A stretch of DNA of 64,000 nucleotides from Flavobacteriales bacterium. Its GTDB lineage: Bacteria > Bacteroidota > Bacteroidia > Flavobacteriales_D > Sanyastnellaceae. The stretch is taken from positions 1-64,000 of the forward strand of contig PKEB01000016.1 of NCBI GenBank assembly GCA_002863125.1, given 5' to 3'. Made by a program: the position numbers and the translations under genes. Each line of letters starts with the position of its first letter. Position 1 is the stretch's first letter. Under the pieces are notes generated by a model. It had not been told where the DNA came from. It ran no database searches and saw nothing but the letters and a program-made list of their open reading frames with translations. Positions 24,746-41,731 of the stretch are shown in pieces.

Positions 24746-27595
24746 TTAGAATCGGATGCGGATACTGAGGTTGGTGCGGAAGCCGTAGCCCATGTATACA
24801 CTGGCCGATCCGGCATCGAAGTTGTTTTCACTGAAGGCGTATTTGCGGTCGGGATCGGTGAAGTACCACTCGCCGTACGCATCGTTGTTTTGGGCGTTGC
24901 TCAGGTAAACGGCATTCAAAATGTTGAACGCGCTCAGGCGCACGTCCATGTTCGTCTCGTTCACGGTGAAGTTGTAACCGGCGTGGAGGTCGAGGAGGCC
25001 GTACGTCGGAATTTGCCACGACTGGCGGCCCTCGTTTTCGCCGTTCAAGCTGAAGGGGTCAAAATCCGCATAGTGGCGGCTGAACACCGTGTAGCGTGGC
25101 TTGATGTAGATGTTCTTGTAGCTGTACTTCAACGAAACGCTGTACTGACTTTGTGGCGAATCGCCTACCGATACGCCTTCTGCGTTGTACTGCACCACGG
25201 CCGGATTGCCCTCGGCATCGATGTAAGGGAGGTTGCTGTCGTCATCCAGCAGCACGAGGCTGTCCTCGGAGCTGGTCCAGCGCCAGTCGCCCAGGCTGAT
25301 GTACCCTTCTATGGTCAGCGACGGGTGCACCCGCCAAGCGACATCGGTTTCAATTCCTTTGTGCAGTGCGCTCATCGAGTTCACGTTGGCGCGAACGATG
25401 TCGCCTTCGACGGTTTCGAAGCGAAGCAGCGATTGCAACGGGCGGTTTTGCCAATCCGTGTAGTAGGCGTTGACGTTCACGCTGAACGGGAACTTGCTGT
25501 AGCTGTAGCCCCATTCCACGGAGTTGATTCGCTCGTTTTCGGTGTTCTCGACGAAGTTGTTGTTGAAGTCCACTACGTTGCGGAAGACCGGCGTTCGGTT
25601 GAGGTGACCGAGGTTGACAAAAGTATTGGCGTACTCGCTCAAGTTGTAGTTGCCGCCGGTCTTGATGGTGTACCCTGGAATCCACTTCCAGCCGCTCGTC
25701 GTGAACTGACCGTCTTCCTGCAGATCCGCGAAATAATCCACGCTCTTATATCCTTGGGTCACGGCGCTGACATTCAAGAAGGCGTTCCACAGATACCCTT
25801 TGTATTCGAGCAAGGCAAAGGCGCCGCCCCAACGCACAAACGCATCGTTGTGGTAGCCGATTTTGTCCCCGACAAAGCGCATGTTGGTCGAGGCGTTTGC
25901 ATTGCGGGTATCTACGAAGTAATCCCCACCGAGCAGATCAAAGACCTCAGCGTAGTGTTCGCCTTGGTACGTGCGGAAATCAACCCCGCCCGACAGGGTC
26001 AACGACTCCGACGTTTCGTGGCGGAAGGTGGAGAGCACACCGTACCAGTAGTGGTTGTTGAAGAGTTTGCGCAGGATGCGCCCGGACTTCAACAAAGAGT
26101 CGCTGTACGTTGGATCGATGGGCGGGCCGAACAGGCCACCGATGGTGTTCGAGTTGTAAAACTTCTGAAAGTCGACTTGCCCATCGGGTGTGTAGTCACC
26201 ACCGCCGAGGCTGTTTTCGAGTCGCGTGCCCCCGCCGTAGCCGTAACTCGCGTAGGCCATGTTAGAAATGTACAGCTTGTCCGAAACGCGCCAACTGTGC
26301 CGCAAGGAGAAGAGGGGCTTGTGGTACTTGTTCTGGCGCTCGTACAAGACCTCGTTGTTGAGCATACCCCAGTGCACGTTGTAGTTATCGCCGTAGCTCA
26401 CGAGGCCGGTCGTATCGATGAAGTCCGTGGCGGAGACTTCTTCCTCGAAGTCGTCGGCAGAGCTGTAACCGTACAAGGCGTTCAGGCTGTCGTAGGCGGC
26501 CAGCTCTTCTTGTTGCAACAAGGTACCGTCATTGAAGATGGCATCGTAGGCAACGCTGTATCCGCGCAACCGCTCGTAGTCCGCCTCACTGCCCGTGAAC
26601 AGGGATCGCGCAAAGTTCTTGTTGTGGGTGGCAATGCGCTGCTGGTAGCCGCGGGAGGCATTCTCTGAAGGCGAACCGGTGGCGCTGATGGAAAGTGTAT
26701 GGTTCCCGAGGGCCTTTTGGATTTTCACGTAGTAGAAAAAGGCCCGGTTGTAGTCCTGCTGGAAGTAGCCTTGGCGGTTTTGGAAGCTGCCGGCGAGGGT
26801 GTAGCCCCAGCCGCCGTCGAGCCGGCCGGAGGTGTGGCCGAGGGACGTTCGGGTGAAACCGAAGCTGCCGACCTCTTGCTTGACCGACGTCTTGCGCGAA
26901 GATTCAATGCCGGAGGTGACGATGTTGACGGTTCCACCGATGGCAGGCAAGGCGAGCTTGGAGGCGCCGAGGCCGCGCTGGACCTGCATGGTTTGGGTCA
27001 CCAAATCCAACCCAAACCAGTTGTTCCAGAATACCGCCCCGCTCTCCATATCGTTGACGGGAATGCCGTCGACCAACACCGAGACGTTCCGCTGCTTGAA
27101 GCCGCGGATGGAAATCGATGGGCCGTTGTCGTCCGATCCCGCTTGGGTGGCATATACGCCGGGGGTGCTGTTCAGGATCATGGGGATGGGCTGCGAGCCC
27201 AATTCCTCCTGGATCTGAACGGGTTTGATGTTAGAGAAAGCGACAGGCGTCTCGCGCTCAATGGCCACATCGGCAATGACCTCGGCTTCTTGCAAGACGA
27301 TGGTGCTCAGCTTAAAGTTGGCCTGAACCAACGCCCGATCCACCTGGACCGAACGGGTCTGGCTCTCGTAGCCGATGTACTGCACCGTGATGTCGTAGGT
27401 ACCGTAGGGCAGGTCCAACGTGTATGCACCATCGAAATCAGTGGCGACGCCGGTGCCGTTCACCAGCACGCTTGCTTGGATCAGGGCCTCTCCGGTAATG
27501 GCATCCGACACCACACCGGTGATTTTACCGGTTTGCGCCCATGCCGTTGCGCTCAGCCAGAGGGCCAAGCCTGCAATCGCCAATCGCTTCATCAA
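24746..27595 (-). CDS. TonB-dependent receptor (SusC/CirA-like) with carboxypeptidase-regulatory domain
   Basis: The 949-residue product has a signal MMKRLAIAGLALWLSATAWA. Residues about 22-100 form a CarboxypepD-regulatory-like domain (ITGVVSDAITGEALIQASVL, VQYIGYESQTRSV). The plug has ISIRGFKQRNVSVLVDGIPV and GASKLALPAIGGTVNIVTSG. A long barrel rich in Tyr/Trp strands follows, ending in YGFRTNLSIRIRF. It sits between the lamin-tail gene (4 bases upstream) and the PLD gene (11 bases downstream), so it likely imports something released by these exoproteins. Phosphate-containing or nucleotide fragments would fit, but this is inference. Confidence 0.88.
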   Translation of the reverse strand: MMKRLAIAGLALWLSATAWAQTGKITGVVSDAITGEALIQASVLVNGTGVATDFDGAYTLDLPYGTYDITVQYIGYESQTRSVQVDRALVQANFKLSTIVLQEAEVIADVAIERETPVAFSNIKPVQIQEELGSQPIPMILNSTPGVYATQAGSDDNGPSISIRGFKQRNVSVLVDGIPVNDMESGAVFWNNWFGLDLVTQTMQVQRGLGASKLALPAIGGTVNIVTSGIESSRKTSVKQEVGSFGFTRTSLGHTSGRLDGGWGYTLAGSFQNRQGYFQQDYNRAFFYYVKIQKALGNHTLSISATGSPSENASRGYQQRIATHNKNFARSLFTGSEADYERLRGYSVAYDAIFNDGTLLQQEELAAYDSLNALYGYSSADDFEEEVSATDFIDTTGLVSYGDNYNVHWGMLNNEVLYERQNKYHKPLFSLRHSWRVSDKLYISNMAYASYGYGGGTRLENSLGGGDYTPDGQVDFQKFYNSNTIGGLFGPPIDPTYSDSLLKSGRILRKLFNNHYWYGVLSTFRHETSESLTLSGGVDFRTYQGEHYAEVFDLLGGDYFVDTRNANASTNMRFVGDKIGYHNDAFVRWGGAFALLEYKGYLWNAFLNVSAVTQGYKSVDYFADLQEDGQFTTSGWKWIPGYTIKTGGNYNLSEYANTFVNLGHLNRTPVFRNVVDFNNNFVENTENERINSVEWGYSYSKFPFSVNVNAYYTDWQNRPLQSLLRFETVEGDIVRANVNSMSALHKGIETDVAWRVHPSLTIEGYISLGDWRWTSSEDSLVLLDDDSNLPYIDAEGNPAVVQYNAEGVSVGDSPQSQYSVSLKYSYKNIYIKPRYTVFSRHYADFDPFSLNGENEGRQSWQIPTYGLLDLHAGYNFTVNETNMDVRLSAFNILNAVYLSNAQNNDAYGEWYFTDPDRKYAFSENNFDAGSASVYMGYGFRTNLSIRIRF

Positions 27596-27599
27596 CTAT

Positions 27600-28523
27600 T
27601 TATTGAATCACCACGCGGTGCGCGAAGGTGCGCCCTTCGGTGAGGTGAATGTTCACGAAGTAGGTTCCGCTCGCGAGGTCGGTCAACGCGAACTCCCGCA
27701 CTGCTTGCGCCATATTCTCATCGCGAAGCACCTGACCCGTAGCCGAGAATACAGTGATGCGCTCGATGGCTTCAGTGGCCGAAAGGGTCAAATTGCCGTT
27801 GGCAGAAGGATTGGGGAATACAGCGGTTTCAACGGCTGGCAACTCTTCCAATTCGTTCGGACTGCAGGCGCAGCTGTGCATGCCGAGGCCGTCCCAGGTG
27901 TTCACGAGGAGCGTATCCCACTCGAGGAAGGTGTTAAAGCTGACAGGTGGTACTGTCACACCGCCCATTACATCGTACTTGCGGCGAAGGGTGTGGTTGG
28001 AAGTCAACCAAGCTGCGCCATCACCGATGTCGATGTACCCGTTCACTTCATCGTTCGTCCAAGCCACGCCGGGATTCTCACCGGGCTTGCCGAAGATGTC
28101 CACCACAGTGGTTTCGTTTTTCACCAAGACCAAGGCGTCGTTGCCGTTCATGTAGGTCGGTGCTGGGTAGGGATTGTCCAATTGATCCGCGTATGCCTGC
28201 ATCGCGGGATCGCAAGCCGGTGAAGTCGCGCCACCGCCCAAGTCCACGTCTTCGGTTTGGCCATTGACCAACACCCACGTGCCGTGGGGTTCGATGGTGC
28301 CGATGAGGTCGGTCCAATCCGTTGCAGTTCCTTCCCCGTTGCTCCAGCGCTGTAGCTGGTATGCTGAGAGGTCGATGGCTTCGCCGGTGGGGTTATAAAA
28401 CTCCACGCCTTTGTTGTTGCCCGTGCCTTCGCAGTACTCGGAAATGAAGATTTCAGTGCATTGCGCTTGCACCAGAGCGGGCAGGGTCACGGCCAATGCC
28501 AATTGGAGGAAAGTGAATCGCAT
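27600..28523 (-). CDS. Secreted lamin-tail-domain protein with T9SS type A sorting domain
   Basis: The product is 307 residues with start at MRFTFLQLALAVTLPALVQA. The frame continues 88 codons upstream, but that part is antisense to the MmcQ-like gene. Residues about 24-100 form a lamin-tail domain (IFISEYCEGTGNNKGVEFYN, IDLSAYQLQRWSNG, TIEPHGTWVLVNG). A second half with DALVLVKNETTVVDIFGKPG and the 'RRKYDV' type motif is typical of lamin-tail exoproteins and exonuclease-linked domains. The C-terminus (VFPNPSANGNLTLSA, SGTYFVNIHL) is the T9SS type A sorting domain. First gene of the operon with the TonB receptor and PLD enzyme. Confidence 0.82.
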   Translation of the reverse strand: MRFTFLQLALAVTLPALVQAQCTEIFISEYCEGTGNNKGVEFYNPTGEAIDLSAYQLQRWSNGEGTATDWTDLIGTIEPHGTWVLVNGQTEDVDLGGGATSPACDPAMQAYADQLDNPYPAPTYMNGNDALVLVKNETTVVDIFGKPGENPGVAWTNDEVNGYIDIGDGAAWLTSNHTLRRKYDVMGGVTVPPVSFNTFLEWDTLLVNTWDGLGMHSCACSPNELEELPAVETAVFPNPSANGNLTLSATEAIERITVFSATGQVLRDENMAQAVREFALTDLASGTYFVNIHLTEGRTFAHRVVIQ

Positions 28524-28578
28524 GTGATTTGGTGTTTGTGAAAATCGTTGCAATTTAACCGGGAATTGGCCAAAATCG

Positions 28579-28947
28579 ATGAGAACAATTGAGTTTGAAG
28601 AGGTGCGGGACCGTTGCCTGTCCAAAGCCCACGTCACCGAGGAATTTCCCTTTGACGAAAACACCTGCGTGTGGAAGGTGGCGGGCAAGGTGTTTGCCTT
28701 GGCAGATATAGATGCGTTCGACGGTGTTACGCTCAAATGCGATCCCGAATACGCGGTGGAATTGCGCGAACAACACTCGGGCATCATCGGCGGCTACCAC
28801 GCCAACAAAAAGCACTGGAATACCGTCCAGTCGGAAGCCGATGTTCCACGTGCATTGGTCCTCGACTTGATTGACCACAGCTACGAACGGGTGGTCGCGG
28901 GTTTTTCACAAAAACAACGCAAGGCGCTCGGATTGCAAGGGCATTGA
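28579..28947 (+). CDS. MmcQ/YjbR family DNA-binding-fold protein
   Basis: This 122-residue protein has the compact YjbR/MmcQ fold. Seen in the sequence are an acidic start (RTIEFEEVRDRCLSKAHVTE), the FPFDENTCVWKVAGKVFAL strand pair, LKCDPEYAVELREQHSGI, and the family-typical YHANKKHWNTVQ helix-turn. The role of the family is unclear; the fold is related to double-wing DNA-binding domains and one member sits with phage or toxin genes. Here it starts an operon that continues 13 bases later with the symporter. Confidence 0.88.
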   Translation: MRTIEFEEVRDRCLSKAHVTEEFPFDENTCVWKVAGKVFALADIDAFDGVTLKCDPEYAVELREQHSGIIGGYHANKKHWNTVQSEADVPRALVLDLIDHSYERVVAGFSQKQRKALGLQGH

Positions 28948-28960
28948 TTATCCTTGTTGC

Positions 28961-30724
28961 ATGGAGATTGCAGCACTCGATTGGGCCATCATTGGCGCAT
29001 ACTTTTTGTTGGCCCTCGGCGTCGGCATCTGGGCATCGCGGGTCGTCGGAAACTCGGCAGCGGGTTTTTTTCTTGCCGGCCGCAACATGCCCTGGTGGCT
29101 GCTGGGCATCAGCATGGTCGCGACCACGTTCTCGACCGACACCCCCAACCTTGTCACCGGTCTTGTTCGGGAGCAAGGCGTGAGCGGCAACTGGGGATGG
29201 TGGGCCTTTTTGCTCACCGGCATGCTCACCGTTTTCGTTTACGCTCGGCTGTGGCGCCGATCGGGCGTGATGACGGACATTGAATTTTATGAGCTGCGAT
29301 ATGGCGGCAAACCCGCTGCTGTGTTGCGCGGGTTTCGGGCGTTGTACTTGGGGCTGGTCTTCAATGTGCTCGTGATGGGGACCGTTTCGCTTGCCGCCAT
29401 CAAATTGGGCGGCATTTTGCTGGGCTGGCCCGGCTGGCTGACCCTGCTTGTCACCGGCGCCATCACCTTGTTGTACAGCACACTCGGCGGATTGCGGGCG
29501 GTCATTCTCACCGACTTCGTGCAGTTCATCTTGGCCATGATTGGCTCGGTTTGGGCCTGCTGGTACATCCTGAACTTGGATGCGGTAGGGGGATTGGATG
29601 CGCTGTTGGCCCACGCGGACGTCGCCTCCAAAACAAGCATGTTCCCCGCCATGGACGACCCGGCCCAATGGGTGCCGATCCTCCTCGTACCCCTCGCGGT
29701 GCAGTGGTGGGCGAGCTATTACCCCGGCGCCGAACCTGGCGGGGGCGGCTACATCGCGCAACGCATGTTCAGTGCCAAGGACGAGAGCCATGCGGTGGGG
29801 GCCACGCTGCTGTTCAATGTGGCGCACTACGCCCTGCGCCCGTGGCCGTGGATTTTGATCGCCTTGGCGTCGATTGTGGTGTTCCCCACGCTGGCGGATT
29901 TACAGGCGGCGTTCCCCAACATTCCTGCGGACAAAATTGGCCACGACCTGGCCTACCCGGCCATGCTCTCCTTGCTGCCTGCGGGACTCTTGGGCTTGGT
30001 CGCGGCATCGCTGCTGGCCGCCTTCATGAGCACGATGTCCACCCAGCTCAACCTCGGTGCGAGCTACTTGGTCAACGACTTTTGGGTGCGCTTCATTCGA
30101 CCGGATGCTACCGATGCGGAGCAGGTGCGTGCGGGCCGATTGGCGACCGTGGTTTCGTTGATGCTCGGCAGCGGGCTCGGTTTGCTGCTGACGGATGCTG
30201 GACAAGCCTTCAACCTGCTGTTGCTCATCGGCGCCGGCACCGGCGGCCTGTTCATCCTGCGCTGGTTTTGGTGGCGCATCAATGCGTGGACCGAGTTGGT
30301 GGCGATGGGCGGCTCGTTGGTTGTTGCGGGGTATTTCACCTTCGTTCACGACGGCTTGGACATTGTTGAGCTGGCCGCCCACGAGAAACTGATCTGGGGT
30401 TCCTTGCTTACCACCTTGGTGTGGGTAGTGGCCACCTATTTGACGCCCCCCGAGTCGGAAAAGACCTTGAGTTCGTTCGTAGCAAAAGTCAACCCCGGCG
30501 GTCCGGGATGGAAACGCTGGGCCACAGCAGAAGCAACTGCTCCTTGGCCCGTTCCTCGGGGCATCCTCTCCATGGTATTGGGATGCACAGGCGTGTATGC
30601 CGCGCTCATCGCCACGGGATCTTGGTTGTACGGCGACGCATCCGCGGCGATGATCCTGCTGGCGGTGGCAACCGGCAGTGCATGGGGCGTATTTGCCTTG
30701 AACCGAACGCCGGCAACCGCATGA
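28961..30724 (+). CDS. Sodium:solute symporter (SSS family), sugar-type
   Basis: The product is about 587 residues with around 14 transmembrane helices; the start MEIAALDWAIIGAYFLLALG at 28961 lies 13 bases after the MmcQ-like stop. SSS hallmarks include AGFFLAGRNMPWWLLGISM, ATTFSTDTPNLVTG (sodium-site region), the GGLRAVILTDFVQF motif and SLLAAFMSTMSTQLNLGASY. The family couples sodium entry to uptake of sugars, amino acids or vitamins. Its neighbours (sugar kinase, nucleotidyltransferase, hexosaminidase) point to a hexose or N-acetylhexosamine. The stop overlaps the next start as ATGA. Confidence 0.88.
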   Translation: MEIAALDWAIIGAYFLLALGVGIWASRVVGNSAAGFFLAGRNMPWWLLGISMVATTFSTDTPNLVTGLVREQGVSGNWGWWAFLLTGMLTVFVYARLWRRSGVMTDIEFYELRYGGKPAAVLRGFRALYLGLVFNVLVMGTVSLAAIKLGGILLGWPGWLTLLVTGAITLLYSTLGGLRAVILTDFVQFILAMIGSVWACWYILNLDAVGGLDALLAHADVASKTSMFPAMDDPAQWVPILLVPLAVQWWASYYPGAEPGGGGYIAQRMFSAKDESHAVGATLLFNVAHYALRPWPWILIALASIVVFPTLADLQAAFPNIPADKIGHDLAYPAMLSLLPAGLLGLVAASLLAAFMSTMSTQLNLGASYLVNDFWVRFIRPDATDAEQVRAGRLATVVSLMLGSGLGLLLTDAGQAFNLLLLIGAGTGGLFILRWFWWRINAWTELVAMGGSLVVAGYFTFVHDGLDIVELAAHEKLIWGSLLTTLVWVVATYLTPPESEKTLSSFVAKVNPGGPGWKRWATAEATAPWPVPRGILSMVLGCTGVYAALIATGSWLYGDASAAMILLAVATGSAWGVFALNRTPATA

Positions 30725-31767
30725 TTATCAATGCATCAGCGCCGGGCAGGATTTGCTTGTTTGGCGAGCATCAAGATTATTTTGGACTCCCCGTGGTGGC
30801 GGCGGCGATTGATTTGCGCGGCCACATTCGCAGCACTTCCCGGTCGGATCAAACGGTAGAATTGCACCTGCTCGATTTGGATGAGGTCCACACGTGGAAC
30901 TTGGATGAATTGCCCGACCCGGGCCCGCGGGCGTATTGGTTGGCAGCGCTGCACGTCGCTCGCAAGGAGGGATGGCTGCCGGAAAACGGCTGGCGGGCGG
31001 AAGTGACAAGTGCCATTCCGCAACAAGCCGGTGCCAGCAGTTCGAGTGCGCTCACAGCAGCGTGGTGTGCATTGATCGCCACGCGGGCGGGGAAGGCCCT
31101 TGATCGCGAGTGGGTGGCCCATGCGACGTGGCGCGTGGAAGTGGCGTTTTTTGATGAGCCTGGGGGCATGATGGACCAGGTGATGTGCGCCATGGGCGGC
31201 GTGCGAGCGGTCGATTTTCATCCTGCGTTCGCGACGCATCCTTTTGCATGTCCTTCGGGCGAGTGGTTGCTGATCGACTCCGAAGAGCCCAAAGACACGT
31301 TGGGCATTCTTTCCCGCGCCAAGCACCAACGGCTCGAGCTCCTCGAGGAGTGGGGGGCTTCCTTGACTGAAGGGGCATTTCCAGCGCGACCGAAGCAATG
31401 GGACTTGAACGCCCACCGACTCATGGACGCCACGGTCGGCATCCAATCCGTTTCGGCGGACGGCCGCGCTTTGCTTGAAACGGGCGGCGCGTCATGTCAG
31501 GCCATTGGTCAACGGTTGATAGAACACCACCGTTGGTTGTCCGAAGGGATAGATGTATCAACGAAGCGCATTGACGCGTTGCTCAAACAGGCTGCGCAAC
31601 TCGGAGCCTGCGGCGGCAAAATCAACGGTTCCGGCGGCGGTGGAACGGCGTTCGCCGTCTTTCCTGATGGAAAAAGGCAGCCAGCGGTGGACGCTTTCCG
31701 CGCAACAGACGCGCGGGTCATCCCGATTAACTTGGGTGCTGAAGGCGTCCGCATAGAGGTCAATTGA
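30721..31767 (+). CDS. GHMP-family sugar-1-kinase, galactokinase-like
   Basis: The 348-residue product starts MIINASAPGRICLFGEHQ with the galactokinase-type signature GRICLFGEHQDYFG. The ATP-binding motif 2 appears as PQQAGASSSSALTAAW near residue 100 and motif 3 as ACGGKINGSGGGGTAF near residue 300. GHMP sugar kinases phosphorylate the anomeric position (galactose, GalNAc, fucose, arabinose or heptose). The direct neighbour is a nucleotidyltransferase, which could turn the sugar-1-phosphate into an NDP-sugar. It overlaps the symporter gene by four bases. The exact sugar cannot be assigned from the sequence. Confidence 0.87.
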   Translation: MIINASAPGRICLFGEHQDYFGLPVVAAAIDLRGHIRSTSRSDQTVELHLLDLDEVHTWNLDELPDPGPRAYWLAALHVARKEGWLPENGWRAEVTSAIPQQAGASSSSALTAAWCALIATRAGKALDREWVAHATWRVEVAFFDEPGGMMDQVMCAMGGVRAVDFHPAFATHPFACPSGEWLLIDSEEPKDTLGILSRAKHQRLELLEEWGASLTEGAFPARPKQWDLNAHRLMDATVGIQSVSADGRALLETGGASCQAIGQRLIEHHRWLSEGIDVSTKRIDALLKQAAQLGACGGKINGSGGGGTAFAVFPDGKRQPAVDAFRATDARVIPINLGAEGVRIEVN

Positions 31768-31772
31768 GTGAG

Positions 31773-33287
31773 ATGTATGAACTTCGAGGCATGACGTGCA
31801 ATCGGATCATTGTGTTGGCGGCCGGCCGTGCCACGCGCATGCGCACCAGTGCTGCATCGGCGGAGCAAACGCGTTTCGCCCAAGATGCACTCGAGCGGCC
31901 CAAGCCCATGATTCGAGTGGGCCCCAACGGCGAGCCCATGCTGGAGCTCATCCTTGAGCAAGCCCTGCGAGCGGGTTTCACCGAAGCGACCGTGGTCATC
32001 GCCCCCAATGACACCATCACGCCAGCATTTCTGCAGGAATGGGAGGGCCGAGGCCTCGGCATGCGCGTCCAAACAGCGGTACAGCCTGAACCCAAAGGCA
32101 CGGGCCATGCCGTCCAATGCGCGCTGGAGAGTGACCCGGTGCCCTCAGGCGCGATGTGGGTCTTGGCAAACGGCGACAACCTCCCAACCCGGTCCGCCCT
32201 GTCGCGTCTCCGGACGGAAGGTGCGGGGCCGGCTGTGTTGGCCTACGACCGGGATGCCTTGGGCCTGGATCCCGCCAAAACCATGGCGTTCGCCGTGCTC
32301 GAAGGAGACGGGACGACCGTTCACCGCATCACGGAGAAGCCAGACGCGTCAGTCGTTGAACGCTTGGCTGCGAGCGGCTCCGTTCGCGTTTCCATGAATT
32401 ATTTCCGGCTCGACGGCGAGCGCCTCCAGGCGCATTTGGCCGCATTGGCGCCGCATCCGGAACGCGGAGAACTCGAGTTGCCGACGGCGTTGCAGGCGAT
32501 GATGGATGCCGGCACCGGGCTGACCCAAATCAATGCCGCGGAGGAAGTGTTGGATCTGACCCGCATACAAGACGTAGCGGGCGTGCAGGCCGGAATGCAC
32601 CTGCTTGAACCCTTCCAATTGGAGGTGTGCGCGAGTTCGCCGTATGACGTTCGGACAGCTGCCGCAACTGGAGCACAGCGCGTGGAGTTGTGCGCGCATT
32701 GGGAGTGCGGGGGCCTGACGCCAACCGAGGCAGACATCCGCTTGGCGCGCGTCCACGGGTTGCCGGTGCATGCGCTCATCCGTTGCCGGGCGGGGCATTT
32801 TGTCTACTCGGAGGAGGAAAAAGCGCTGATGACGGCGCAGATCGAAGGCTCGTTGGCTGCGGGTGCCACGCGGGTGGTGGTGGGTGCCTTGCAAGCGGAT
32901 GGAACGTGGGACGCACCGCTGTTGGAACGCTGGGTGGGCGACTTTGGAGCTCACCGCATCGTCATTCACCGGGCATTTGATGCCTGCACCGATTGGGAAA
33001 GCGCAGCCGCCGCTTTGGAGGCACTGGGTGTGCGCCGGCTTTTGACAAGCGGCGGCGAACTCCGTGCGTGGGACGGCCGCGATCGGATTCGTCAATTGGT
33101 CGACGGAGGATTTGACGTAACGGTCGGAAGCGGCGTGGTGCCGGAACAGCGCGAGGACTGGATGGCACTCGGCGTCACCCAATTCCATGCCTCGTGCCGG
33201 GAGGTGGACGAACACCCGACGGCCCTGTTTGACGGAAAGTCCAGCAAGGTCAGCGCTGCAGCGGTTCGCCACTGGTTCAACCCCTGA
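31773..33287 (+). CDS. Sugar nucleotidyltransferase fused to a CutC domain
   Basis: The product is about 504 residues. Residues about 8-280 form a nucleotidyltransferase: IIVLAAGRATRMR (P-loop-like G-x-x-T-R-M), the RPKPM lysine, GTGHAVQCAL, LANGDN and ITEKP. Residues about 285-504 form a complete CutC TIM-barrel: LEVCASSPYDV, AQRVELCAHWECGGLTP, IRCRAGHFVYSEEE, RVVVGALQADG, HRAFDAC, RLLTSGG, VTVGSGVV. CutC was named for copper tolerance, but that role is disputed. The kinase upstream would supply sugar-1-phosphate. Starts are possible at TTG 31764 (overlapping the kinase stop), ATG 31773 and ATG 31791; the last is closest to the first strand. Confidence 0.85.
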   Translation: MYELRGMTCNRIIVLAAGRATRMRTSAASAEQTRFAQDALERPKPMIRVGPNGEPMLELILEQALRAGFTEATVVIAPNDTITPAFLQEWEGRGLGMRVQTAVQPEPKGTGHAVQCALESDPVPSGAMWVLANGDNLPTRSALSRLRTEGAGPAVLAYDRDALGLDPAKTMAFAVLEGDGTTVHRITEKPDASVVERLAASGSVRVSMNYFRLDGERLQAHLAALAPHPERGELELPTALQAMMDAGTGLTQINAAEEVLDLTRIQDVAGVQAGMHLLEPFQLEVCASSPYDVRTAAATGAQRVELCAHWECGGLTPTEADIRLARVHGLPVHALIRCRAGHFVYSEEEKALMTAQIEGSLAAGATRVVVGALQADGTWDAPLLERWVGDFGAHRIVIHRAFDACTDWESAAAALEALGVRRLLTSGGELRAWDGRDRIRQLVDGGFDVTVGSGVVPEQREDWMALGVTQFHASCREVDEHPTALFDGKSSKVSAAAVRHWFNP

Positions 33288-33314: not shown

Positions 33315-35528
33315 ATGGAAAAACCCCTGCTGTTCTCCGCTTTTGCCCTCTTCTTGGGAGCTTGTGCTCCGGTCGCAGAAACGCCTTCATTGGACCTCAT
33401 TCCGCATCCAACAAGCTGGAATCCCGGGCAAAACACCTGTGCCATCTCCGGAGCGTGGGAACTGGAAGTGCCAGCGGATTGGCAACCGGAACGGGGTTTT
33501 TGGTCGGATTGGCTCACGGCTGATTCGGATGGACAGGAAGCAGAGGCCGTGTCGGTCATCGCAGAGCAGGTGCCCGGTATGGAACCCGAGGCGTACGCGC
33601 TTGCCATTCGACCGGATGGCATCACCATCAAAGCCGGCTCAACGCACGGGGTGTTTCACGGATTGACTACGTTGCGTTCTTTGGCGCTGACGAGTGATGG
33701 CGCCTTGCCGTGCGGAGACCTTGCTGATGCGCCGCGGTTTGCCCACCGAGGATTGCTGCTGGATTGTTGCCGGCATTTCATGGAGCCGGAATTTATCAAG
33801 CGCACGATTGACCTGCTTGCCTTGCACAAAATGAGTGTGCTGCATTGGCACCTAACGGAAGACCAAGGGTGGCGCGTTGAAATTGATGCCTACCCTAAAT
33901 TGACCCAAAAGGGTGCATGGCGGACGGAGGCGGACGGCAGCCAGCACGGCGGGTTTTACAACAAAGAGCAAATCCGCGACATCGTCGCCTACGCAGCCCA
34001 GCGCCACATCGAGGTCATTCCCGAAATCGAACTCCCGGGCCACAGCCGTGCCGCATTGGCCGCCTACCCGTGGTTGGGGTGCACCGGCGAGGCCATGGAG
34101 GTGCCGCATGACTGGGGCGTGTTCAAGGACATCTACTGCGCGGGGCAGGACACGACGTTGGCGTTTTTGAAAACCGTGTTGGACGAAGTGATGGAGCTTT
34201 TTCCTTCTGAATACATCCACATCGGAGGCGATGAGGCGCCCAAAGTGCGGTGGGAGCAATGCCCCAAATGCCGAAAACGCATCGCCGACGAAGGCCTGCA
34301 CGACGCGTATGAATTGCAGTCGTGGTTCATTGGCGAGATCGGTCGGTACCTCGAAGCCCACGGGCGCAAAATGATCGGTTGGGATGAAATCCTCGAAGGC
34401 GGCTTGCCCGACGGGGCGACCGTGCAGTCGTGGCGGGGCATGGACGGCGGTCGCGACGCCGTGGCCATGGGCCATGATGCCATCATGTCGCCGACGTCGC
34501 ATTGCTATTTTGACTACCCCGTGGAATCCACGGACCTCGAGGAGGTCTATGGGTTTGAGCCCGAGCCAGAAGGTCTGGAAGGGAGCGGCCGCATCCTCGG
34601 TGGGGAGTGCAATATGTGGAGCGAACGCGCACCGCAACACCTCGTCGAATCCAAGGTGTATCCACGCCTCGTGGCGATGGCTGAGGTGCTCTGGAGCCCG
34701 CCATCCACCCGCAACTGTCCGGATTTCCAAACGCGCATGGAATCCCATTACACCCGGCTCGATGCCTGGGCTGTGGCGTACGGATGGGAAACGGTTCCCA
34801 TGGCGCTTCAATGGGAGCAGGGCACTGCCCCCAACGGCCTGCGCGTTCAACTCGTTCCGGCCATGTCCGGGGTCGGAGGTACGGGAGAATTTGTGGCTTT
34901 GGGCGGTGAAACAACGGCCCGTGCCATGGGCCTGGAGGCAACCCATGAGATCCAGGGTGAGGGCGAATTGCGGGTGGCGCTGTCGCGCAAAGGCGTATCG
35001 ATGGGCGACCCGTTGGCTTTTCCCCTGGCCGGTCACGTCGGTGCATTTCGACCGGTTGAGTTGGCTCACGAAATCAACGCATACTACCCAGGACGGGGCG
35101 AGCAGGGCTTGGCGGATGGGCGATTGGGCTCAGCGGATTTTCGGGACGGGTCGTGGCAGGCGACGCAGGGCGAGCACATGGGCGTTACCTTGCAGTTGGA
35201 TGCGCTCACCGAAATCGATTCGCTGAGCATGCAGGTGTACCGGTACCAGGATGCTTGGATTTTCCTGCCGGACTCTGTGCGGTTCCAGTGGTCCGCTGAC
35301 GGCGAAAACTGGAACGGTGGGTGGTGGACCCAGCCGTTTGGCACGTCAACCTTCGATCCCAACGACGCCCAGGACGTGCAGCGTTTGGCCCTTCCGGTTG
35401 GAGAGGCGGCGAGTTGGGTGCGGTTCGAAGCCCGCAACCCCGGTCCATGCCCCGAATGGCACGATGCCGCCAGCTCAGCGACGTGGGTATTCTTGGATGA
35501 ATTGGTGGTGCACAGCCAGTCTAAGTAG
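33315..35528 (+). CDS. GH20 beta-N-acetylhexosaminidase, lipoprotein
   Basis: The 737-residue product has the lipoprotein signal MEKPLLFSAFALFLGAC with Cys 17. Residues about 25-125 form the GH20b N-terminal domain (LIPHPTSWNPG, THGVFHGLTTLRSL). The catalytic barrel, about 135-480, has FAHRGLLLDCCRHF, VLHWHLTEDQGWRVEI, EVIPEIELPGHSRA and the Asp-Glu pair in YIHIGGDEAPK. The C-terminal 150 residues look like a discoidin-type domain. The enzyme releases terminal GlcNAc or GalNAc at the cell surface. It is 27 bases downstream of the NTase-CutC gene in the symporter operon. A TATTTTGC box (33304-33311) ends three bases before the ATG and could give it its own promoter. Confidence 0.92.
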   Translation: MEKPLLFSAFALFLGACAPVAETPSLDLIPHPTSWNPGQNTCAISGAWELEVPADWQPERGFWSDWLTADSDGQEAEAVSVIAEQVPGMEPEAYALAIRPDGITIKAGSTHGVFHGLTTLRSLALTSDGALPCGDLADAPRFAHRGLLLDCCRHFMEPEFIKRTIDLLALHKMSVLHWHLTEDQGWRVEIDAYPKLTQKGAWRTEADGSQHGGFYNKEQIRDIVAYAAQRHIEVIPEIELPGHSRAALAAYPWLGCTGEAMEVPHDWGVFKDIYCAGQDTTLAFLKTVLDEVMELFPSEYIHIGGDEAPKVRWEQCPKCRKRIADEGLHDAYELQSWFIGEIGRYLEAHGRKMIGWDEILEGGLPDGATVQSWRGMDGGRDAVAMGHDAIMSPTSHCYFDYPVESTDLEEVYGFEPEPEGLEGSGRILGGECNMWSERAPQHLVESKVYPRLVAMAEVLWSPPSTRNCPDFQTRMESHYTRLDAWAVAYGWETVPMALQWEQGTAPNGLRVQLVPAMSGVGGTGEFVALGGETTARAMGLEATHEIQGEGELRVALSRKGVSMGDPLAFPLAGHVGAFRPVELAHEINAYYPGRGEQGLADGRLGSADFRDGSWQATQGEHMGVTLQLDALTEIDSLSMQVYRYQDAWIFLPDSVRFQWSADGENWNGGWWTQPFGTSTFDPNDAQDVQRLALPVGEAASWVRFEARNPGPCPEWHDAASSATWVFLDELVVHSQSK

Positions 35529-35530
35529 CC

Positions 35531-38500
35531 TTAACACGGCTGTCCCCACACGGTCAACATGCCGAGCAGATCGCCGGTATTGACGTCCCCACTTCCGTCG
35601 AGGTCCAAAACCGGAGAGGCGCCATTGCCCACCACGTCGACGGCCTCGCCGAAGTGGACGAGCAGCAGGAGCAGATCCGGCAGGTTGCGCAATCCGTCCG
35701 AATTGAAGTCACCGGGACACAGGCACGGATAACCTCCGGCTTCAAAACAGTCGGTGCCGAGCAAGGGGAAAGCGTACTGCTCGGCGAGCAAAATGGCGTC
35801 CATGCCCACTACTTCGCCCATGGCCCGACCGGGATAATCATCAATCGGGGGGTGGATGCCGCCCCAAATGCGGGACAACGCACTTTGGTCCGCGGCGTCG
35901 CGGTAGGTGGCCCACTGCAATTCAAAGTCCATGGATGGCCCGTCTTCGAAAACAAGGAATTCATGGGCTTCCACCGGGAACGCGCCCATGCCTCCGGGGA
36001 AAAACGCATCGCCCGTCAAGGCGGTCAAGACCTCCGCAGCTGCTCGGCTGAACGTCGAGTGCCCGCTGACGTAGCCGGCAAACGGCGGTGTGACAAACGT
36101 GGGGCGCTGGTACGGCCACCATTCGCGGGCGCGGATCCAATCCACGCCGGCCCATTGCAACGCGGGCACCCCGATGTAGTCCGGTCCTTTCCAGCAGCGG
36201 ATTTTCATTTCGTACAGGTGCTCGTTTTCAGGTCCACGGAGGTCCACGGGGTCCTCCGGTCCGATTTGTTCGATGTGTCCCGGGATGATGGGCAGGCCCG
36301 CTCCGTGGTAGTTGGGCAGCTCCGGGTCGGTGCATTGTCCGCGGTCAGCCATCCAGCGCAACGCCGACACCGGCCGCACGTAGTCGTGCCATCCTTTGCA
36401 ACTCCACGCAGCGATGGCTGCATCGTGCATGGCGCCCCCCATGGAGAAGTAGGCGATGACGTCCCAATCGAGGGGGGCGAGCGACTCACCGAGGCCGCGC
36501 CATTTGCGTTGCAGTTCAGGTTGGTCGTTGACGTAGTTGAGGAGGGTGAACCAGTGCCCGGGCGGGGTTTCTGAATCCGGACCGTCCGCCCAGTATTCCG
36601 CCAGGACCCGTGTGAAGTCTCCGCGCAAAACCGGTTGGGGCGCATAGGGCTCGCCAGTCACCGGATTGAACGGGTGCCCGGCTTCGACACCTGCGGCGAC
36701 AGGAACGCCATCAACCGCATAGTAATCGCGTGCCTCTTCGATGGTGCCAGGCAAGAACCCATTCCAGCTGAATGCTCCGGGGCCGATGTCCCACACCACG
36801 GAATCGGAAGGGTCGAGGTGGGAGGCCCAGAGGGCGACAAGGGTATGCCCCCATTTGTAATCGCTTTCCAATCCGATTTCTGCGTTTGGATCGATTTGCG
36901 CCGGAGGCCCCGGGTCGTGGTAGACGGTGTAGGTGCTTCCCAGCCGTTCGAACTGTGCAGTGTCTGCCGGCGTCATAGCGAACGGTTGGACGTTGCCCCA
37001 TTCAGGACTGAGGAAGTCGGGGGAAATGTTGGAGCCTTCATTGCCGGATTGATCGATGAACTCGGCCAATTGCAAGGGTTGCCAGCGGTTGGGAAAAAAC
37101 ATATTGGGGTTGCCCGGTTCGTCCATCACCAGGTTCCAATTCATGGGGTTGTAGTAGGTATTCTGGTAATCGATCACTTCGAACGAACCGTCTTGGAATC
37201 CATACGCGATGTACTGTTCCGCGAGGTAATTGCCGAGCGATGCAGCGCGCTCCATCCACGTCCCGTTTGTGTAATCGGTCTCGTGCCAAGCCGTGTCAAA
37301 GCCCAAGGCTTCCATTTGGGTGTCGATGTGTGTGGCGATTCGCTCGGCGCGTGGCGCGTTGGCAAACCGGTGCTGCAGCAACCGGTACACCCCGTAGCTG
37401 ATGCTCAACTGCCGGGCTGCCAGTCGGTCTTCCGCCTCAATCTCGGACACCCCTTCATAAGCACACGTGTAGCTTCCTTGTTGGTTGCCCAAAAGCCACG
37501 GCTGCGCGCCGACAATGGTGTCCTCACCCCAAGCCGCCCACGCGTCGTACATCAGTGCGGAAGTGTGCCACAAGTTCCGTGCGTGGACCGTGGGGCGCGC
37601 CCAGTCGTGGCGAATGCTCAGGAGGGTAGCCTCGTTCCAGATGCGGGCAACGCTGTGGGTCGCCAAGGTCGGGAAATCCGGCAGGGGCTCGCCAGAACAG
37701 TCCAAGCCGGCCGAGGGAAAGAAGCACGTTCCGTCGTCCTCAGTCGCGGCCATTTCGTAGTTGCATGCATCTGCATCGGTGCAGCCGTAGGTCAACCAAG
37801 GTTCTGCACCCGGCTCCAGCACCGCATGGATGCTGTCCGCGGCAAATGGCCCGTGCGTAGAGTATTCCCCGGTGGGCCAGCGCACCACAAGGGAGTCCAC
37901 GCTGGTTGCAGTGCCCAAACCGACATGGACATCGAACGAACTGGAACCGCTGTACCCTTGGCCGCAATGGATTTCGTCGTAGCGGATTTTGCCATCAAAA
38001 TGGACTTCGATGCGCGCCCCAATGGCGGATCGGTTGGAGGTGGTGCCCTCGAGTCGGAAGCCGATGTAGTGCCCGCTTGAGTTGAGGTTTTCCAAGACCT
38101 GGAAACCAGGCTGGGTGGGAGAGCCGCTGGTGGCGATGGCGAGGTCCCAATCCCCGTCACCGTCCAAATCCCCCGCTGCCAGCCCGTAATCGCTGTGGTC
38201 GTGTTCCAGGACCACATCCCCTTCGCTGACCCAAGCGAACGTGGTGTCGCCGAGGCCCCTGTACAGGCGGTTCGACGTAGGCGCGAAGGCGTAGTCATTG
38301 ACGATGTACAGGTCCGATTCTGCGTCGTGGTCGTAGTCGAAAAAGATGCAGCCCCACGTCATGCCTGAATCGTCTACGCCAGCCGCCTCGCCAATGGCGG
38401 TGTAGGTCCCATCGCCGTTGTTCAGGAACAGCTCGCTGGGGTAGAGGTCGGTGATGTAGAGGTCCATCCAGCCGTCGTGGTTGATGTCCGCTGCGTCGAC

Positions 38501-39271
38501 CCCCATGCAATTGCCTTGGTAGTCCAACCCCACGCCCGCGGCGTCTTGCGTGAAGCTGCCTTGGCCGTTGTTGCGAAAAAATTTGTTGACTTGGTTGCCA
38601 TCGTGGGTGACATACAGGTCCACATCGCCGTCGTTGTCCGAATCAAAAAACAGCGCCCCCATGCCAATGCCCGTATCCACCGTTCCCGAGGGAAAGGTGA
38701 CGTTCTCAAAGCCGGCACCTTCGAGGTTGCGCAGCATGGCATTGTGGCTGTTGATGTTCACCACATAGAGGTCCAACCAGCCGTCCCCGTCGATGTCGGC
38801 AGCGTGGAGGCTTCGGCAAGGCCCGGCGTTGCCTGCATTCCAGGCGTCTGTTGCATCGGTAAAGGTGCCGTCGCCGTTGTTGAGGTACAGGCGGTTGGGA
38901 TCCAGGTAATTTCCTGTAATCAGGTCCAGCCAGCCGTCGTTGTTGAAGTCCGCCCAAAGCACCGCGTTGGTCGTGCCGTCATCGGCGACTCCTGCGGGAA
39001 CCGCCACCTCCTCGAATTCCATTCCGCCAAGGTTTCGGAATAAACGGTTGGGTGCAAACTTGGTGCCTACGTAGATGTCTTCCCGTCCGTCGCGGTCAAA
39101 ATCTCCAATCGCGACCGCATGGTGCAGGCCATCGGCGTTCACACCAGCGGCTTCGGAAACGTTCGCGAACAGCCCTTGTCCGGATGCCGACAGACCGAAG
39201 TGTCCGAGGAGCAAACAGCACATCCATGCTTTCCAGGAATGCTTCAACCGGTGGCGTGTAAAGTTGAACAT
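35531..39271 (-). CDS. Giant secreted FG-GAP/ASPIC protein fused to a vanadium haloperoxidase and dockerin-like repeats
   Basis: The 1246-residue product has a signal ending near SASGQ. Residues 35-410 carry seven FG-GAP/VCBS calcium motifs (GDFDRDGREDIYVG, ADIDGDGWLDLYVV, ADINHDGWMDLYIT and others). ASPIC/UnbV follows (about 405-485), then a Cys-rich GCTDADACNYEMAATEDDG. Residues 545-1165 form a vanadium haloperoxidase/PAP2-like domain with all three site motifs: KGWHDYVRP (about 958), YVSGHSTFS (about 1070) and SRIWGGIHPPIDD (about 1130). It ends in two dockerin/EF-hand-like repeats (DFNSDGLRNLPDLL, DLDGSGDVNTGDLLGML) rather than a classic T9SS tail. Such enzymes oxidise halides with peroxide. 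Confidence 0.82.
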   Translation of the reverse strand: MFNFTRHRLKHSWKAWMCCLLLGHFGLSASGQGLFANVSEAAGVNADGLHHAVAIGDFDRDGREDIYVGTKFAPNRLFRNLGGMEFEEVAVPAGVADDGTTNAVLWADFNNDGWLDLITGNYLDPNRLYLNNGDGTFTDATDAWNAGNAGPCRSLHAADIDGDGWLDLYVVNINSHNAMLRNLEGAGFENVTFPSGTVDTGIGMGALFFDSDNDGDVDLYVTHDGNQVNKFFRNNGQGSFTQDAAGVGLDYQGNCMGVDAADINHDGWMDLYITDLYPSELFLNNGDGTYTAIGEAAGVDDSGMTWGCIFFDYDHDAESDLYIVNDYAFAPTSNRLYRGLGDTTFAWVSEGDVVLEHDHSDYGLAAGDLDGDGDWDLAIATSGSPTQPGFQVLENLNSSGHYIGFRLEGTTSNRSAIGARIEVHFDGKIRYDEIHCGQGYSGSSSFDVHVGLGTATSVDSLVVRWPTGEYSTHGPFAADSIHAVLEPGAEPWLTYGCTDADACNYEMAATEDDGTCFFPSAGLDCSGEPLPDFPTLATHSVARIWNEATLLSIRHDWARPTVHARNLWHTSALMYDAWAAWGEDTIVGAQPWLLGNQQGSYTCAYEGVSEIEAEDRLAARQLSISYGVYRLLQHRFANAPRAERIATHIDTQMEALGFDTAWHETDYTNGTWMERAASLGNYLAEQYIAYGFQDGSFEVIDYQNTYYNPMNWNLVMDEPGNPNMFFPNRWQPLQLAEFIDQSGNEGSNISPDFLSPEWGNVQPFAMTPADTAQFERLGSTYTVYHDPGPPAQIDPNAEIGLESDYKWGHTLVALWASHLDPSDSVVWDIGPGAFSWNGFLPGTIEEARDYYAVDGVPVAAGVEAGHPFNPVTGEPYAPQPVLRGDFTRVLAEYWADGPDSETPPGHWFTLLNYVNDQPELQRKWRGLGESLAPLDWDVIAYFSMGGAMHDAAIAAWSCKGWHDYVRPVSALRWMADRGQCTDPELPNYHGAGLPIIPGHIEQIGPEDPVDLRGPENEHLYEMKIRCWKGPDYIGVPALQWAGVDWIRAREWWPYQRPTFVTPPFAGYVSGHSTFSRAAAEVLTALTGDAFFPGGMGAFPVEAHEFLVFEDGPSMDFELQWATYRDAADQSALSRIWGGIHPPIDDYPGRAMGEVVGMDAILLAEQYAFPLLGTDCFEAGGYPCLCPGDFNSDGLRNLPDLLLLLVHFGEAVDVVGNGASPVLDLDGSGDVNTGDLLGMLTVWGQPC

Positions 39272-40624: not shown

Positions 40625-41731
40625 ATGACAAGGGTTCTTACGGTAATCGGAGCTCGTCCGCAGTGGATGAAGGCAAGTGCGCTCAGTCGTGCCTTGAAAG
40701 ATGCCAAATGGGGGATTGAGGAACGGGTGTTGCACACGGGCCAACATTACTCAGATAATATGGCGGGCAGTTTCGTCAAGGAGTTGGATTTGCCGCGAGC
40801 ACACCATGCGTTGACAGTTTCAACGGATCCTGCAGAACGCATGGGTCAAATGATGGGAGGCATTCAAGCGGCCATTCGAAAGGATCAACCAGCGGCGGTG
40901 TTGCTTTTTGGAGATACAGATTCGACGTTGGCAGGAGCTTGGGCAGCAAGCAGAGAATGCATCCCCGCCGTCCACATCGAAGCTGGTTTGCGTTCATTTG
41001 ATCGCCGCATGCCAGAAGAAATCAATCGGATCCTCACAGATTCTTTAAGCGACCTCTTGTTTTGTCCATCGGAGGCTGCTGTTCGCCTGTTGGCGGATGA
41101 AGGGATTTCGACGGGCGTGCGGAACACGGTTCGGGTTGAGGTGTCAGGAGACCTCATGTTGGATACGGCGAGGTTTTTTGGAGGACAACCGGTGGCGCCA
41201 TCAGCAGACGCCAAATCGGTTCTGCTGACTATGCACCGTCCCTCCAATGTTGACAACCCAGAACGACTTGCAGCGTGGATATCGAACATTGGACAGGCCG
41301 CCAAATCAAGGGGATGGCAGGTGATTTTTCCAGTTCACCCGCGAACAGCCAAAATGGCGGAGATTGCCCTCGGCGCCCGCTGGAAGGAAGTCATGGGGGA
41401 ACAGAACATACAGGTGAAAGAACCAGCCGGTTACCTTCAAATGATCGAATGGCTCAAGCAAGTTCGGCAGGTTTGGACAGACTCAGGAGGGCTGCAGAAA
41501 GAAGCCTATTTTATGCACCGACCGGCTGTCATTCTCCGAAATTCATCTGAATGGACGGAATTACTTGACAGTGGTGTGGCGGCATTGTGTCCTGAAACAA
41601 CTGACCTTCATGATTGTATCGACCGCATGGAAAACCAGATGCAAAGTATGGATTTCAATGTGCCGCTGTACGGGGACGGCAACGCAGCTCAATTCATAGC
41701 ACAGACCTTGTACGATTGGCTAAAGAAGTAG
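40625..41731 (+). CDS. wecB: Non-hydrolysing UDP-N-acetylglucosamine 2-epimerase
   Basis: The 368-residue product starts MTRVLTVIGARPQWMKASAL at 40625; the open frame from a TTG nine codons earlier is less likely. Family motifs seen are LLFGDTDSTLAGAWAA, VHIEAGLRSFDRRMPEEINR, LFCPSEAAVRLL, VLLTMHRPSNVDNPE and TDSGGLQKEAYF. The enzyme interconverts UDP-GlcNAc and UDP-ManNAc for surface polysaccharide. It lies 27 bases after radC and overlaps the start of the polysaccharide-deacetylase-like gene, so the pair probably serves envelope glycan synthesis or modification. Confidence 0.93.
   Translation: MTRVLTVIGARPQWMKASALSRALKDAKWGIEERVLHTGQHYSDNMAGSFVKELDLPRAHHALTVSTDPAERMGQMMGGIQAAIRKDQPAAVLLFGDTDSTLAGAWAASRECIPAVHIEAGLRSFDRRMPEEINRILTDSLSDLLFCPSEAAVRLLADEGISTGVRNTVRVEVSGDLMLDTARFFGGQPVAPSADAKSVLLTMHRPSNVDNPERLAAWISNIGQAAKSRGWQVIFPVHPRTAKMAEIALGARWKEVMGEQNIQVKEPAGYLQMIEWLKQVRQVWTDSGGLQKEAYFMHRPAVILRNSSEWTELLDSGVAALCPETTDLHDCIDRMENQMQSMDFNVPLYGDGNAAQFIAQTLYDWLKK

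Follow-up and report, generated by a model that had tools for sequence, protein, structure and literature searches.

A single open reading frame of a Flavobacteriales bacterium joins a sugar nucleotidyltransferase (NTase) to a complete CutC domain, and we consider that it probably encodes a bifunctional cytoplasmic enzyme of N-acetylhexosamine salvage, in which the CutC half is a sugar enzyme and not a copper protein. The frame lies in a 64,000-nucleotide stretch of contig PKEB01000016.1, which is referred to here as the window. CutC spans organisms from bacteria to humans, and its copper name rests on thin evidence. As described below, the proposed role of CutC as an enzyme of glycan catabolism is well supported by genomics, and the link is specifically with the breakdown of N-glycans/GlcNAc-Asn, rather than with sugar metabolism in general.

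Results

The NTase::CutC Fusion Gene

The fusion gene was found at positions 31764-33287 of the forward strand, as an ORF of 507 aa in the form listed. Inspection of the sequence showed that every motif quoted in the original prediction is present, and the Pfam models NTP_transf_3 (PF12804; aa 16-153, 39.6 bits, cut-off 27), NTP_transferase (PF00483; aa 43-255, 35.4 bits, cut-off 21.2) and CutC (PF03932; aa 285-478, 141 bits, cut-off 23.3) all matched the protein, the last over model positions 2-200 of 202. The NTase domain comprises aa 14-270 (31803..32573, + strand) with the motifs LAAG..TRM, RPKPM, GTGHA, NGDN and EKP, and the complete CutC TIM barrel comprises aa 283-507 (32610..33284, + strand). 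The prediction that an NTase is followed by a full CutC domain in one frame was thus borne out. The start proposed with it, position 31773, is an in-frame ATG; however, the ATG at 31791 (MTCNRIIVLAAG) is the likelier start judging from the homologous fusion at locus L039, which begins there (MNCNRLIVLAAG). The fusion contains the only copy of CutC in the window genome.

When 101 genomes of the same family were searched, the full-length fusion was found to be open in 14 of them, 12 from the same genus and two from a sister genus, with identities of 51-100% and ORF lengths of 499-512 aa. The motif residues of the NTase, the CutC domain and the adjacent kinase are intact in conservation alignments. 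Comparison with three relatives gave dN/dS values of 0.06-0.11 in both halves, showing that both domains are maintained by selection. A frameshift joining two separate genes, which had been named beforehand as a possible refutation, or an assembly artefact is ruled out by the 14 intact homologues and by the purifying selection on each half. An apparent triple fusion of kinase, NTase and CutC at L039 (746-aa ORF) was rejected, since the kinase there is read in a different frame and terminates at a stop, giving the same layout as in the window. The NTase::CutC architecture is a new combination of known parts.

The Operon and Its Surroundings

The first gene of the operon (28961..30724, + strand) encodes an SSF (sodium:solute symporter) transporter (PF00474, 119.3 bits), a probable sugar importer, whose position is unchanged in all genus members examined. 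As read from the sequence, its end overlaps by 4 bp (ATGA) the start of a galactokinase-type GHMP sugar kinase gene (30721..31767, + strand; PF00288, PF08544, PF10509), and the stop of the latter sits just ahead of the fusion. Downstream, the gene at 33315..35528 (+ strand) encodes a GH20 beta-N-acetylhexosaminidase (PF00728, 367 bits; PF02838) with a lipoprotein-type signal at the N-terminus (FALFLGAC), and GH20 is the gene immediately 3' of CutC in nearly all loci of the family. The order SSF symporter, GHMP kinase, NTase::CutC and GH20 is kept across the genus. Sister genera carry instead a kinase::NTase fusion (approximately 640 aa, kinase first) and a stand-alone CutC adjoining GH20, and in others the kinase, NTase and CutC are encoded by separate genes. 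Since two different fusions share the NTase, we infer that the kinase, NTase and CutC act together. A promoter scan with the sigma-70 consensus, a poor guide for Bacteroidota, detected nothing above chance.

Approximately 5 kb downstream of the operon and outside the operon proper, a WecB-type UDP-GlcNAc 2-epimerase gene follows RadC (40625..41731, + strand; TIGR00236, 212.1 bits, cut-off 210.15), in a synteny that is kept in the genus; it is a possible consumer of UDP-GlcNAc. Convergent with the operon, and in a neighboring position conserved in the genus, the gene at 35531-39271 (- strand) encodes a 1246-aa protein with FG-GAP repeats and an ASPIC/UnbV domain, together with a region resembling the second helical-bundle domain of vanadium chloroperoxidase, as assigned on the homologue at L038. 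Divergent from the operon, also in conserved synteny, are genes for a TonB-dependent receptor with a carboxypeptidase-like domain (24746-27595, - strand) and for a secreted lamin-tail protein that carries a Por sorting tail (27600-28787, - strand), both families being assigned on the homologues at L048 and L063; this pair is a possible outer-membrane uptake partner of the operon. In some sister genera (e.g., at L048:9767-10507), genes for a Biopterin_H aromatic amino acid hydroxylase and a BD-FAE-type alpha/beta hydrolase adjoin CutC-GH20.

The Kinase and the NTase

In the kinase, the GRICLFGEHQDY signature, the SSS-phosphate loop, a catalytic-type Asp153 and a C-terminal GGGG motif are conserved among 20 family members, and the GHMP N and C domains as well as the galactose-binding signature all scored above the Pfam cut-offs. 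Galactokinases were closest among solved structures, with human GalNAc kinase (2a2c) also matched (E 1e-9). The score against the galactokinase equivalog model TIGR00131 was 68.9 bits, under its cut-off of 226.65, suggesting that the sugar of this kinase need not be galactose. The motif columns of the NTase are conserved over 23 family members, and the curated models closest to it are those of archaeal GlmU and AglF. The scores of 64.7-67.3 bits against archaeal GlmU (TIGR03992, cut-off 292.1) and 37.5 bits against GlmU (TIGR01173, cut-off 366.85) fall below the cut-offs, as did the scores against all the curated equivalog models compared; UTP and HexNAc-1-P are our guesses for the substrates.

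A search of the window genome gave no match for nagB and only a sub-threshold match for nagA. The usual GlcNAc-6-P route looks absent from this genome, and the C1-kinase/NTase route may be the sole entry of GlcNAc.

Structure and Conserved Residues of the CutC Domain

An AlphaFold2 model of the CutC domain of the window had a pLDDT of 95.3 and resembled solved CutC structures with Z scores of 25-31, including 1x7i (Z 31.3, rmsd 1.7 Å, 225 residues) and human 3iwp (Z 31.2). The nearest folds outside CutC were MfnB (MJ1099; Z 19), followed by HPS, HisA and KGPDC (Z 16-17), all of which are enzymes acting on phosphorylated substrates. Residues E5, R24, E26, R58, R60, H120, R121, D124 and H193 (domain numbering) are all found in the window domain and are 97-100% conserved over 187 sequences. 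The near-invariant residues E5, R24, E26, R58, H120, R121, D124, T146-S147-G148, G173/G175 and H193 are placed by the model at the C-terminal ends of the eight strands, where the active site of a TIM barrel is located. The presence of several Arg and His residues, together with the Gly-rich ends of strands 6 and 7, suggests that the substrate of CutC may be anionic, perhaps phosphorylated.

Genes Adjacent to CutC in Other Genomes

The neighbors in 60 CutC regions sampled across Bacteroidota were clustered jointly with those of the window's family. An Asparaginase_2 protein was the most frequent neighbor (32 loci), mostly located directly upstream, and comparison with solved structures identified it as a true glycosylasparaginase (GA), its match to 3ljq (E 9e-110) being far better than that to isoaspartyl peptidases. 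GH20, GH2 beta-mannosidase and GH92 alpha-mannosidase were the next commonest. For a second set, 80 CutC loci from named genomes of several phyla were collected with a narrow CutC profile, and the Pfam families of the immediate neighbors were counted. Asparaginase_2 ranked first upstream (15/65) and GH20 second downstream (6/64), with fucosidase, GH92, GH125, GH85 and GH2 also found among the immediate neighbors in these diverse loci. Among these neighbors (65 upstream, 64 downstream), none of the copper families had as many as two matching members. The tabulation of CutC neighbors, which had been proposed as a check, turned up GA, GH20 and other glycan hydrolases among the recurring genes, and not metal genes.

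Two other gene types were noticed downstream of CutC. A transglutaminase-like domain occurs in 9 of the 64 neighbors, including L173:5914-8526 (Bacteroidetes), and represents a second recurrent context. M81/MlrC-type metallopeptidases appear twice in the downstream tally; the gene after CutC at L216:7047-8516 (Spirochaetales), starting MRVLVGGLHHESDTFNP, may be of this type, as assigned by eye.

An N-glycan gene lies three or fewer genes from CutC in 87/187 loci, with 27 changes of this state along the tree of CutC sequences, indicating that the association does not reflect one inherited event. Adjacency of GA and CutC (within 6 kb) was found in 47/91 CutC-bearing Bacteroidota genomes, representing 11/20 families. 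Genomes of the window's family have GA, though not beside CutC; the window genome carries both GH20, in the operon, and GA, the latter at G000:C6:95273-96220 with a twin-arginine-type start.

Co-Occurrence of CutC with GA and GH20

Among 296 Bacteroidota genomes surveyed, CutC was found in 92, GA in 148 and GH20 in 144. GA was present in 90 of the 92 CutC-bearing genomes (Fisher p 3e-33). When the genomes were divided by gene content, CutC occurred in 89/112 genomes having both GA and GH20, as compared with 1/36 having GA only, 1/32 having GH20 only and 1/116 having neither. The same test counted by genus gave 56/71 versus 2/48 (p 4e-17), and CutC co-varies within single genera (g27 and g85). 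GA and GH20 were found without CutC in 23 genomes.

The survey of 199 Pseudomonadota genomes detected CutC in 31 and GA in nine. CutC was present in 7/9 GA-bearing genomes versus 24/190 others (p 3e-5), and five of the seven GA-CutC pairs were within about 2.5 kb; at L273, the operon that contains CutC also includes GA, GH2, GH92 and an SSF symporter. A GA match was absent in 24 of the 31 CutC-bearing Pseudomonadota genomes. Among 26 CutC-bearing genomes from outside Bacteroidota, a GA match with E no higher than 1e-30 was obtained for 14, of which six (Acidobacteria, Verrucomicrobia and Akkermansia records) were below 1e-100, and no match was found in Chloroflexi J064, the Spirochaete records and most of the Pseudomonadota records. 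An explanation of CutC by GA only was rejected as incomplete outside Bacteroidota, where many CutC genomes have no GA. These genomes, and the 23 Bacteroidota genomes with GA and GH20 and no CutC, show that neither GA chemistry nor N-glycans can be the full explanation.

Discussion

The glycan or sugar-phosphate role put forward for CutC in the original prediction is supported by the neighbor analysis and the phyletic tests, and neither a metal-gene neighborhood nor a frameshift was found to speak against it. According to the pathway that we propose, GH20 would release GlcNAc/GalNAc from (N-linked) glycans outside the cytoplasm, and the SSF symporter would take the released N-acetylhexosamine in. 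The galactokinase-like kinase would then phosphorylate C1 of the imported sugar, and the NTase half would transfer a nucleotide to it, probably UMP, yielding UDP-HexNAc, the substrates of both steps being those that seem most plausible to us. The CutC half is probably a TIM-barrel enzyme of the phosphate-binding type, acting on GlcNAc derived from N-glycans or on a derivative of it. Twin-arginine-type N-termini are present on the GA proteins encoded near CutC but absent from CutC itself, which suggests a cytoplasmic site of action for CutC, following uptake.

GA produces aspartate and 1-amino-GlcNAc, a glycosylamine that decays slowly, and we know of no enzyme assigned to the hydrolysis of 1-amino-GlcNAc or its phosphate. 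Since an enzyme converting 1-amino-GlcNAc to GlcNAc would benefit just those genomes in which GH20 and GA co-occur, our leading guess, and a tentative one, is that CutC removes the amino group of this compound. CutC would then hydrolyze the 1-amino-GlcNAc left by GA (or a PNGase), so that the sugar enters metabolism. It is conceivable, though doubtful, that CutC, from bacteria to humans, fills the gap of a cytoplasmic enzyme in N-glycan core breakdown, for example as the hydrolase of 1-amino-GlcNAc or of its phosphate.

The chief chemical alternative to a 1-amino-GlcNAc hydrolase is a mutarotase or 2-epimerase for N-acetylhexosamines, which would convert the beta-sugar from GH20/GA to the alpha form for the galactokinase-type kinase or interconvert GlcNAc and ManNAc (or their phosphates). 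Such an activity would fit the company of CutC with this kinase and GH20 in the window family, the conserved Glu, Asp and His residues at the strand ends, which suit acid/base chemistry, and the resemblance of the fold to isomerases such as HisA; it would not require GA, in keeping with the GA-less genomes. However, GH20 yields the same beta-GlcNAc with or without GA, and CutC is found in just one of the 32 Bacteroidota genomes having GH20 alone; moreover, known mutarotases have, to our knowledge, folds different from that of CutC. We thus regard a mutarotase or epimerase as rather unlikely. Co-occurrence of CutC with glycan genes can also reflect a shared lifestyle, and CutC might have a general metabolic or repair job and simply travel in large glycan-eating genomes, as its presence without GA and with varied neighbors in Pseudomonadota, Chloroflexi and Spirochaetes would allow. 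Such an indirect association appears improbable to us, as it leaves unexplained the direct adjacency with GA in 11 families, the need for GA and GH20 together, the co-variation inside g27 and g85 and the fusion to a sugar NTase.

Least probable of all, in our judgment, is the annotated role of CutC in copper handling, under which the fusion would add a copper-binding function to a sugar enzyme. In favor of it stand the family annotation and the binding of Cu(I) by human CutC, which is weak, in the micromolar range, and amounts to one ion per monomer; in addition, knock-down of CutC in human cells or the worm leads to higher copper sensitivity with cell copper unchanged; the 2024 review of these data considers a chaperone role unlikely, yet keeps CutC in copper homeostasis given the knock-down sensitivity (PMC11083455). 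The window domain has both Cys7 and Cys28, and over the 187 sequences Cys28 is 97% conserved, whereas Cys7 is just 78% conserved, as compared with 97-100% for the acid, Arg and His residues. Copper genes do not recur beside CutC, and the Cu P1B-ATPase, present in 285 of the 296 Bacteroidota genomes, showed no association with CutC (90/92 with CutC vs. 195/204 without, p 0.51). This ATPase gave no match at E up to 1e-60 in the window genome, which is one of the 11/296 genomes lacking it. In E. coli, the promoter of the sigma-E sRNA MicL, which represses lpp, lies in the cutC region (PMC8216713), and another report credits the copper tolerance caused by cutC overexpression in E. coli to the sigma-E response (PMC6338753). 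From the published data, a copper side effect is neither established nor excluded.

If CutC is an enzyme of sugar breakdown, a widely copied annotation would be corrected and a missing step of glycoprotein sugar catabolism may be supplied. With the fusion and a phyletic distribution of CutC that comes close to demanding both GH20 and GA, a long-standing question of annotation can now be put to a direct biochemical test on a small number of substrates. Should CutC prove to be an N-glycan core enzyme, the copper label would be a mistake, and NTase::CutC would couple this step to UDP-HexNAc salvage. A literature search, outside of which most subscription journals lie, found neither a functional link of CutC with GA or GH20 nor an NTase::CutC fusion. 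Only two papers in that search, both on Xanthomonas genomes, noted cutC (XAC3091) with the nix N-glycan genes and listed the nearby asparaginase XAC3092 as N-glycan related; cutC was labeled there as copper resistance, and a functional link to N-glycans was not drawn (PMC6718126, PMC5700972). The nix cluster is similar to the loci described here in having cutC among N-glycan hydrolases, and differs from the window in having no fusion.

In comparison with the CutC family (1twd/1x7i, 3iwp, 4r9x, 2bdq), the window domain has the whole domain, the fold and the near-invariant residues in common. The solved members are single-domain proteins annotated as copper proteins, whereas the window CutC makes up the C-terminal half of a protein with two domains, encoded in a sugar operon, and its position 59 is occupied by Cys instead of the usual Pro (IRCR vs. 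IRPR). The window NTase shares its fold family and the motifs LAAG..TRM, KPM, GTGHA, GDN and EKP with the GlmU N-domain, TIGR03992, AglF and RmlA; unlike these, it has an insertion of approximately 17 residues between the first two motifs and scores far below the equivalog cut-offs, and, unlike in GlmU, CutC stands where the acetyltransferase half would be. The arrangement of a GHMP kinase and an NTase in series, fused in the sister genera, is reminiscent of the FKP-type kinase/NDP-sugar pyrophosphorylases. In contrast to the FKP type, however, the sister-genus fusion consists of a kinase followed by the NTase in approximately 640 aa, the kinase is galactokinase-like and not fucokinase-like, and in the window genus the fusion partner of the NTase is CutC.
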